This document shows, one piece after another, positions 8,249 through 26,049 of a stretch of DNA of 64,000 nt. This stretch comes from an uncultured Methylophaga sp. Lineage in GTDB: Bacteria > Pseudomonadota > Gammaproteobacteria > Nitrosococcales > Methylophagaceae. A model generated the notes under the pieces. It had not been told where the DNA came from, did not search any database, and saw nothing but the letters and a program-made list of their open reading frames with translations. Position numbers and translations under genes: made by a program. The stretch spans positions 186,001-250,000 of the forward strand of contig CAJXKF010000003.1 of NCBI GenBank assembly GCA_913055695.1, given 5' to 3'. Each line of letters begins with the position of its first letter. Within the stretch, counting starts at the first letter, position 1.

Positions 8249-11816
<3,568 letters not shown>

Positions 11817-22858: not shown

Positions 22859-23092
22859 ATGACCATCAAACAAGCCCTGATTGATGAACTGGAAGTCCTG
22901 CTGCAGTTCCCGCTCGACAGCACCCAGGCCGGTATTAAAATTCATCACACCGCCAAGGAAGGACTGATTGAAGCCGCGCAGCAGCTTTATGATAAAGGGC
23001 TGATTACTCAGGAAGATGGTGGCTATCTCACCGATCTCGGCTATGAAGCCGCAGAACATCTGCAGCATGCCTTGAGGATCATCACTTCCTGA
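22859..23092 (+). CDS. TIGR02647 family small protein
   Basis: A 77-residue protein, the usual length of the TIGR02647 family of gammaproteobacteria. ELEVLLQFPLDSTQAGIKIHH and GLITQEDGGYLTDLGYEAAEHLQ match the family pattern as remembered. The second half resembles a winged-helix segment, so DNA binding is possible but unproven. Its 3' end overlaps convergent folA by 11 bp. Confidence 0.78.
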   Translation: MTIKQALIDELEVLLQFPLDSTQAGIKIHHTAKEGLIEAAQQLYDKGLITQEDGGYLTDLGYEAAEHLQHALRIITS

Positions 23093-23573
23093 CACGCTGA
23101 TACAGCATAAAGCTGTAGTCATAGTCGTTTTTTTCATCTGCCTGATGATCCTCACGGCTGATGCATTCCCAGTCTTCAGGGGACCAGGCAGGAAACCAGG
23201 TATCGCCCTCCAGCCTGGCGTGGACCAGTGTCAGGTAAAGCTTATCTGCCAGCGGCAGGGTCTGCTGATACAAAGAAGCGCCGCCCATAATCATCACTTC
23301 TTCCTGTTTATTGCACAAAGCCAGCGCCTCATTCAGCGAATGCACCACGTCGCAACCCGGCGCCTGAAAACCCTCGCGCGCAGTGATCACAATATTCTGT
23401 CTCCCCGGTAAAGGTCGACCGATAGACTCATGGGTACGGCGTCCCATGATAATCGGTTTGTCCATGGTCACCCGCTTGAAATGCTGAAGATCAGCCGACA
23501 AACGCCAGGGCAGATCATTATCTTTTCCTATCAGACCCTGCTCATCAGTAGCCACAATAATTGCTAATTTCAT
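23082..23573 (-). CDS. folA: Dihydrofolate reductase
   Basis: NADPH-dependent reduction of dihydrofolate to tetrahydrofolate. A 163-residue protein with the family sites in order: IVATDEQGLIGKDNDLPWRLSADLQHFK (Asp at the substrate site), PIIMGRRTHESIGRPLPGR, and MIMGGASLYQQTLPLADKLYLT. It is divergent from priA across 289 bp that hold the DnaA-box cluster. Confidence 0.97.
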   Translation of the reverse strand: MKLAIIVATDEQGLIGKDNDLPWRLSADLQHFKRVTMDKPIIMGRRTHESIGRPLPGRQNIVITAREGFQAPGCDVVHSLNEALALCNKQEEVMIMGGASLYQQTLPLADKLYLTLVHARLEGDTWFPAWSPEDWECISREDHQADEKNDYDYSFMLYQRVRK

Positions 23574-23664
23574 TCATCCATTCTCTTCAAAACGGGCACT
23601 AGCATAACGCTAAACAGGCCTCTCAATAAAAGCTGTATAACTACCCAATAAGATCGATCATATC

Positions 23665-23742
23665 TTGTGGATAACTTTTGCTGTGGATAAGTCGCCTTTT
23701 TGTCCACAGCTAATCCGCGTCGCGTTAGGACAGTTATCAACA
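23665..23742. promoter_or_regulatory. oriC: Cluster of DnaA boxes, possible replication origin
   Basis: Four DnaA boxes lie within 78 bp: perfect TGTGGATAA at 23666-23674 and 23682-23690, TTGTCCACA at 23700-23708 (one mismatch) and TTATCAACA at 23734-23742 (one mismatch). GATC sites flank the cluster (AGATCGATCA at 23651-23660, GGATCA near 23749) and AT-rich tracts lie on both sides, especially 23765-23862. It sits in the largest divergent gap of this region, between folA and priA, 12-13 kb from the parS-like sites. This is what an oriC looks like. A DnaA-titration or DnaA-regulated promoter is the alternative. Confidence 0.5.
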
Positions 23743-23862
23743 GTCTTGGATCAGGATAAGATGTTGGTTTTACTTCGATAAAAATAACTATCCAACAACT
23801 CACAGGCATAAAACATTAACATCATAAAAAATATCTTCTTCTTTCTTTCTGTTTATTAAGCA

Positions 23863-26049
23863 ATGACCAGCATCGTACATATTGCCGTCCCGAGTCCACT
23901 CAGACAGCTTTTCGATTATCTTTCAGAGAAAGACGTCAGTTTCTGGCAGACGGGGATGCGGGTTAAAGTCAATTTTGCCGGCCGTGACTGTATCGGGATC
24001 GTGATGAGTGCCAGTGAGAGAGAGACAGATAAGGACAGCCTGAAAAAACTGAAAGCTATCGATGCGATTATTGATGAAACAGCACTGATTCCGGAAGAAA
24101 TCATTCAGACGGTACTCTGGGTCAGCCGTTATTATCATCACCCCCTGGGCGAGGCTTTCCAGACGGCTTTACCCAAACTTATCCGAAACGGCGCTGAGGC
24201 TGTTTTAAGTCTTGAACCCTGGTGGTTCAAAACAGAATTTGTCACTGAAAAAAAACTGGGCAGTAAACAGCAGGCTTGTCTGGCAATGCTGGAAGATTAT
24301 CCGGAAGGACTCAGTCAAACCGCGTTAAGAAACACGCTGGGAAATGTATCGGCATCAATGAAAGCCCTGGAAAACCAGGGACTGGTCATACAGAAACAGC
24401 AAGCAAAACTGCCATTGGGACGCAATGAACTCACTTTTCCGATGCAGTTAAGTGAAGAACAGCAACAGGTCGTAGACGCGGTCTGGCAGGAGAGAGCGGC
24501 GTTCACCCCTTTTTTGCTGCAGGGCATTACCGGCAGCGGCAAAACGGAAGTCTATATCGAACTGACCGAGCGTATGCTCCGCGACGGGAAACAGGTGCTG
24601 ATCCTGATTCCGGAAATCGGTCTCACCGGGCAGTTTGTCGAACGTTTCCAGAAACGACTGGATGCCAGTATCGTGGTTCTGAACTCTGCGGTTTCAGACG
24701 GCGACAGAAAACAGGGCTGGTTACTGGCCAGAGCCGGCCTTGCTGACCTCATCATCGGTACCCGCTCAGCGGTATTTACGCCCTTGCCCAGTCCGGGGCT
24801 TGTCATCATTGATGAAGAGCACGACAGCTCCTATAAGCAGCAGGACGGACTTCGATATCATGCCCGCCATGTTGCTCTGGTACGTGCGCAGAAAATGGGC
24901 ATTCCGGTGTTAATGGGGAGTGCCACCCCGTCTCTGGACAGCCTGTATCAGGTGCAGCAGAACCGCTTTCAACTGTTGCAACTGAGTGAACGTGCCGGTG
25001 GCGCGCGTTTGCCCGCAGTTCATCTTGTCGACAGCCAGGCAGCTCATCCCGATCATGGTCTGAGCGAACAACTGCTCAAACGAATGCAGAGCCATTTAAG
25101 TGCGGGCAATCAGGTGATTCTTTTTATCAACCGCCGCGGTTATGCGCCGGTACTGATGTGTCATGACTGTGGCTGGCAGGCAAAGTGTCGCGATTGCGAT
25201 GCCAGAATGGTCGTGCATCGGCACCGACAGATCCTGTTCTGTCATCACTGTGGACTGATTCAGCGACTGCCTGACAGTTGCCCCGATTGCGAAAATATGC
25301 AGCTTAAAAGCTATGGCGCCGGCACCGAGAAAATCGAACAGCATCTGCAGGATTTGTTTCCTGAAACGCCGGTGATTCGGGTGGATCGGGATACCACGCA
25401 GCGGGTTAACGCCTTTAACGACATCGTCACGGAAGTCAGACAGGGGCAGGCCAGAATCCTGGTCGGCACCCAGATGCTGGCCAAAGGACATGATTTTCAT
25501 GACGTCACCCTGGTGGGGGTGCTTGATACCGATCAGGGGCTATACAGTGCCGATTTCCGCGCTACCGAAAATCTGGCTCAGATGATCACGCAGGTTACTG
25601 GCCGTGCCGGTCGCGGTGAAAAAGCCGGTGAGGTGCTGATTCAGACCGAGCAGACTTCGCATCCTTTCTGGCGTAGTCTGATAGGAGACGGCTATGCCAA
25701 AGCCGCACAGAGACTGCTCAGTGAACGTATCGAAATGGGCATGCCGCCAGTCAGTAACTGGGCCGTGATCCGCGCCGAAGCCAGAGATCGCAGCCTAGCC
25801 ATGGATTTTCTGCAGCAGGTGTCTCAGCTGTTACATCAGACTGAGCAGCAGGAAGTGATCATCCTGGGGCCGGTACCGACCATTATGGAAAAAAAAGGCG
25901 GCCGCTATCGGGCCCAGTTACTGTTGACTTCAGCCTCACGCAAACCCTTGCATCAGCTGCTGGACTGGCATACCGAGGCTATCAGCCGGCATAAACTGGC
26001 ACGCAAATGCCGCTGGTCGATTGATATCGATCCGATGGACCTGATTTAA
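23863..26049 (+). CDS. priA: Primosomal replication protein N' (PriA helicase)
   Basis: Restarts stalled replication forks. The 728 residues comprise an N-terminal fork-binding domain, a helicase domain with Walker A GITGSGKTEVYIEL (about 219-232) and DEEH box IIDEEHDSSYKQQDGLRYH, then a zinc insertion with four paired-cysteine sites (CHDCGWQAKCRDC and CHHCG...CPDC), and motif VI QVTGRAGRGEKAGEV. No strong ribosome-binding site precedes the ATG. It is followed by argS. Confidence 0.97.
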   Translation: MTSIVHIAVPSPLRQLFDYLSEKDVSFWQTGMRVKVNFAGRDCIGIVMSASERETDKDSLKKLKAIDAIIDETALIPEEIIQTVLWVSRYYHHPLGEAFQTALPKLIRNGAEAVLSLEPWWFKTEFVTEKKLGSKQQACLAMLEDYPEGLSQTALRNTLGNVSASMKALENQGLVIQKQQAKLPLGRNELTFPMQLSEEQQQVVDAVWQERAAFTPFLLQGITGSGKTEVYIELTERMLRDGKQVLILIPEIGLTGQFVERFQKRLDASIVVLNSAVSDGDRKQGWLLARAGLADLIIGTRSAVFTPLPSPGLVIIDEEHDSSYKQQDGLRYHARHVALVRAQKMGIPVLMGSATPSLDSLYQVQQNRFQLLQLSERAGGARLPAVHLVDSQAAHPDHGLSEQLLKRMQSHLSAGNQVILFINRRGYAPVLMCHDCGWQAKCRDCDARMVVHRHRQILFCHHCGLIQRLPDSCPDCENMQLKSYGAGTEKIEQHLQDLFPETPVIRVDRDTTQRVNAFNDIVTEVRQGQARILVGTQMLAKGHDFHDVTLVGVLDTDQGLYSADFRATENLAQMITQVTGRAGRGEKAGEVLIQTEQTSHPFWRSLIGDGYAKAAQRLLSERIEMGMPPVSNWAVIRAEARDRSLAMDFLQQVSQLLHQTEQQEVIILGPVPTIMEKKGGRYRAQLLLTSASRKPLHQLLDWHTEAISRHKLARKCRWSIDIDPMDLI

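Follow-up and report, generated by a model that had tools for sequence, protein, structure and literature searches.

The intergenic region between folA and priA as the very probable chromosomal replication origin of Methylophagaceae

Bacterial replication origins are usually sought at dnaA, and origins adjacent to this gene are the common state. The locus described here raises the question of whether the chromosome of an uncultured Methylophaga, which belongs to a family of methanol-eating marine bacteria and encodes formaldehyde/tetrahydromethanopterin-type genes, has its origin between folA and priA. An earlier note on the window, by which we mean the whole analyzed stretch of 64,000 nucleotides, had proposed such an oriC and had called a position at priA and not at dnaA unusual, which we judge to be right. 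The gap and its neighbors, with gene identities from Pfam and NCBIfam, comprise the following features:

23082–23573, minus strand: folA, dihydrofolate reductase
23574–23862, unstranded: proposed oriC, the folA–priA intergenic region of 289 bp
23666–23674, minus strand: DnaA box 1, perfect TTATCCACA, position kept across the family
23682–23690, minus strand: DnaA box 2, perfect TTATCCACA, 16 bp from box 1, position kept across the family
23700–23708, plus strand: DnaA box 3, TTGTCCACA, one mismatch, 18 bp from box 2
23734–23742, plus strand: DnaA box 4, TTATCAACA, one mismatch, 34 bp from box 3, alignment position conserved
23796–23806, plus strand: degenerate fifth box position, CAACTCACA in this genome
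23799–23858, unstranded: proposed DNA unwinding element, the 60 bp with the lowest helix stability in the intergenic region
23863–26049, plus strand: priA, primosomal helicase PriA

Direct reading confirmed the two perfect and two near-perfect DnaA boxes that had been noted earlier, with a span of 77 bp instead of 78 bp. The layout is divergent, with two minus-strand boxes followed by two plus-strand boxes, and these four are the only good boxes. Most relatives have a perfect TTATCCACA at the position of box 3, and many have TTATCCACA or a one-mismatch form at the fifth position (e.g., L066, L068, L077, and L082), which is followed by a conserved CATTAACATCAT-like block; by eye, no clear run of DnaA-trios was seen. 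The clustering of the boxes clearly exceeds chance. The 2.6-Mb genome contains 31 perfect DnaA boxes (reversed control: 4), and boxes 1 and 2 are the sole pair of them that lies less than 400 bp apart. When 2 points were given per perfect box and 1 point per one-mismatch box in a 90-bp window, the array reached a cluster score of 6; when contig C3 (333 kb) was shuffled 40 times with an order-1 Markov model, the highest score was 3.

Adjacent to the boxes is DNA that is predicted to unwind easily. Based on nearest-neighbor helix stability computed in 60-bp windows, just 0.044% of the windows of the contig are less stable than the stretch between the array and priA, and the AT-rich tracts mentioned in the earlier note are thus real. 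The flanking GATC sites of that note are present as well (23652, 23656, and 23749), but they are not conserved, as their number varies from 0 to 6 per locus. The usual reader of GATC sites is SeqA, which we looked for and found to be absent, and these sites are therefore not SeqA sequestration sites. A SeqA/Dam-sequestered oriC of the E. coli type was rejected on the grounds that SeqA and a conserved GATC cluster are both missing. One weak IHF-like site with one mismatch is located at 23757.

The array is a family trait. It was found at all 32 Methylophagaceae priA loci with at most two mismatches at 27 fixed positions, the box order and the 16/18-bp spacing being kept in 32 of 32, and it is retained even where PriA identity has fallen to about 53%. 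PriA of this genome is 70–76% identical to its nearest relatives in Methylophaga, and this places the genome in Methylophaga together with the formaldehyde/tetrahydromethanopterin-type genes. As a null comparison, the best match to the array pattern inside priA had 10 mismatches. Among 45 priA loci of other gammaproteobacteria, none had a Methylophaga-type array (best: 8 mismatches), and a class-wide scan with the array pattern gave matches in 3 of 369 genomes, all of them Methylophagaceae. The distance from the array to the priA start is 189–214 bp in the family; in several genomes, an extra 1.7 kb is present between folA and the array, and even where folA is 2.4 kb away the array remains beside priA. 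At locus L050, the array occupies 1987919–1987995.

Two loci show additional peculiarities. L079 has two further perfect DnaA boxes, the first on the minus and the second on the plus strand, about 480–500 bp before priA, upstream of the conserved array. In G022, priA (C1:1438928–1441106) is split over three frames, possibly due to sequencing errors or a broken gene.

A distant GC-skew minimum had been named beforehand as the observation that would speak against an origin at this position, and it was not seen. We computed the skew on one full contig (C3) and on sampled stretches of relatives' genomes, including the near-complete Methylophaga genomes G007, G010, and G022 with one or two contigs each; one 20-kb stretch of G010 was read as N and left out. 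On C3, the cumulative skew has its minimum at 203.4 kb and rises thereafter, corresponding to a minus-to-plus switch 6.3 kb from the array at 209.7 kb. The three other Methylophaga genomes likewise have their skew turn at this locus, with minima at 314.7 kb (G007), 1986.3 kb (G010), and 1426.2 kb (G022) and arrays at 305.6–305.7, 1987.9–1988.0, and 1438.7 kb, which gives separations of 9.0, 1.7, and 12.5 kb, respectively. Two-arm fits to whole-chromosome samples on a 20-kb grid placed the origin at 320, 2000, and 1440 kb in the same order. As the minima are 2–12 kb away from the array, the position of the origin is known to about 10 kb only. The offset is usually towards the recF side, and transcription of the his-murJ-recF block there runs in the direction of the array and may displace the local minimum. 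A dif-like terminus site lies roughly opposite the array in G007 (1989 kb, arms of 54/46%) and in G022 (2958 kb, arms of 49/51%), and the expected arrangement of origin and terminus is thus good in these two genomes. It appears unequal or lacks a dif match in two others: a dif-like site in the draft genome G014 is about 0.8 Mb from the array with arms that are not near-equal, and the arms of G010 appear unequal in sparse samples.

The dnaA gene itself is far away. In this genome, dnaA–dnaN is on another contig (C9, L018 1–2700), and since even the shorter side of C3 extends 124 kb past the array, dnaA must be at least 124 kb from the array. The dnaA–array distance is about 146 kb in G007 (dnaA at 159.5 kb), 123 kb in G010 (1864.6 kb), and 216 kb in G022 (1655.1 kb). 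No perfect DnaA box was found at any of 19 Methylophagaceae dnaA loci, and the dnaA–rpmH region of this genome was without boxes on reading. In Methylophagaceae, dnaN remains beside dnaA, and recF and gyrB are apart from dnaA–dnaN, 12–15 kb from priA. In the window, this region contains:

8249–10669, minus strand: gyrB
10701–11816, minus strand: recF, separated from dnaA–dnaN
10762–10777, unstranded: parS-like site with one mismatch, inside recF
11395–11410, unstranded: parS-like site, perfect TGTTCCACGTGGAACA, inside recF

The two parS sites that the earlier note had placed 12–13 kb away were hence recovered, 12.3–12.9 kb from the array. G010 and G022 also have parS sites at recF, and G007 has a weaker one. 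As side aspects, about 73 kb separates the array from the sole ParB match (G000:C3:282371–282898), in comparison to 12–13 kb for the parS sites, and dnaA–dnaN of Methylophagaceae is about 120–216 kb off, with recF–gyrB near the proposed origin.

DnaA-box clusters before priA also occur in other gammaproteobacteria. A cluster resembling the DARS core, TNATCCACA-N3-TTATCCACA-N5-TGTGGATAA, precedes priA at 13 of 45 non-Methylophagaceae loci (at most three mismatches), and DARS-like clusters are found 50–350 bp before priA at L083, L088, L093, L096, L101, L106, L118, L126, L130, L133, and others. An exact form of this pattern is present in 148 of 369 gammaproteobacterial genomes and absent from the reversed control. 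The E. coli sequence between bioD and uvrB, the place of DARS1, has the same layout on the opposite strand. A priA origin widespread in gammaproteobacteria (clusters L083, L088, L093, L096, L101, L102, L106, and L118) was rejected, as these clusters match the DARS core and no skew turn was found there in the genomes tested. As such look-alikes exist without a skew turn, a box cluster before priA does not by itself indicate an origin; Methylophagaceae differ from them in skew, layout, and the empty dnaA locus.

These look-alikes bear on the view that the Methylophaga array is an element regulating DnaA, either a DARS-like reactivation site or a titration site such as datA. A DARS-core-like cluster at the equivalent place before priA is what one would cite for it, but the Methylophaga array does not fit the box order of the DARS core, which E. 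coli DARS1 does, and the skew turns at priA in Methylophaga, whereas it turns at dnaA in G408 and keeps its direction at the priA clusters of G407 and G409. We therefore regard this explanation as extremely unlikely. It is very unlikely that the array serves solely as a DnaA-controlled promoter of priA, at which the level or nucleotide state of DnaA tunes the restart helicase, with the true origin elsewhere within about 15 kb. That the array keeps almost the same distance to the start of priA, even where folA is farther off, would suit such a promoter, and the AT-rich stretch could be part of it; however, no sigma-70-like site came up in the promoter scan, no further DnaA-box cluster was found in the stretches read near the skew minima, and the skew turns at the array in four genomes. 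In addition, as Methylophagaceae are without boxes at dnaA, some other site must be the origin. Both ideas had been raised as alternatives in the earlier note; they leave the skew turn unexplained but are conceivable as additional roles of the array.

The view that these bacteria follow most others in having their origin at dnaA, the local skew turn reflecting gene-strand bias or a rearrangement, is almost certainly wrong. Origins adjacent to dnaA are common and also occur in the neighboring family, but in G007, G010, and G022, dnaA is located 121–216 kb inside one skew arm with equal sign on both sides, and the missing perfect boxes at the dnaA loci are equally at odds with this explanation.

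In view of these data, we consider it very probable that the folA–priA gap is the chromosomal oriC of this Methylophaga and of the whole Methylophagaceae. This reading, which bears out the initial proposal, is well supported in silico. The sequence data show the array of boxes and its retention throughout the family, the turn of the skew, the unstable helix, the location of the parS sites, and the lack of boxes at dnaA. We infer that DnaA binding, unwinding, and initiation occur at the array: DnaA would bind the divergent boxes with their fixed spacing, a DnaA oligomer would open the strongly AT-rich DNA that separates the array from the start codon of priA, and the helicase would be loaded there, with two forks leaving. 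ParB bound to the parS sites in recF would segregate the new origins, and the dnaA gene, over 100 kb away, would carry no origin.

If this is correct, the whole family would be mis-rotated by origin finders and annotators that use dnaA as the default landmark, and replication-timing estimates for Methylophagaceae would shift by 100–200 kb. It would also be a case of a chromosome origin changing its address relative to dnaA that is bracketed by two neighboring families, with sister genomes in the other state available for comparison. Our literature search found nothing tying Methylophaga to oriC, or priA to oriC; DoriC may already list a Methylophaga prediction. One paper mentions priA solely as a marker near the Francisella oriC (PMC5859110).

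The neighboring family has its origin at dnaA. In G035 and G037–G040, 5–9 boxes with at most one mismatch each directly follow dnaA, and there was no array at the two priA loci examined in this family. These dnaA–dnaN origins resemble that of Methylophaga in having divergent arrays, minus then plus, of TTATCCACA-type boxes. They differ in that the array follows dnaA and priA is 12–25 kb away without an array, whereas in Methylophagaceae the array precedes priA and dnaA is boxless and distant. Either dnaA–dnaN moved away from the origin, or the origin itself shifted to priA over about 20 kb. In a more specific scenario, which we regard as rather unlikely, the ancestor of Methylophagaceae relocated its origin from dnaA to the promoter region of priA, perhaps by converting a DARS-like DnaA-box cluster that was already present at priA, and the relocated origin also serves today as a DnaA-controlled switch linking the expression of priA to initiation. 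In G036, another member of the neighboring family with a single 1.85-Mb contig, no DnaA match was found. This contig stops at the start codon of rpmH, and its other end is about 260 bp before dnaN (L282, L261); dnaA has thus been lost or else was cut off at the ends of the contig.

In comparison with other known systems, E. coli DARS1 and the DARS-like priA clusters share with the Methylophaga array that they are clusters of DnaA boxes, in many gammaproteobacteria just upstream of priA, but their boxes are arranged as plus, plus, minus with 12/14 spacing and not as minus, minus, plus, plus. The E. coli oriC is the mnmG–mioC region. It likewise has TTATCCACA-type boxes and adjacent unwinding-prone DNA, is intergenic, and lies at the skew minimum and away from dnaA. 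In contrast to E. coli, Methylophaga has no SeqA and hence no SeqA/Dam sequestration, its origin is flanked by folA and priA instead of mnmG and mioC, it has fewer boxes, and its unwinding-prone stretch is on the priA side. On this in silico evidence, the proposed Methylophagaceae origin is of the conventional DnaA type; what is unusual about it is its location.
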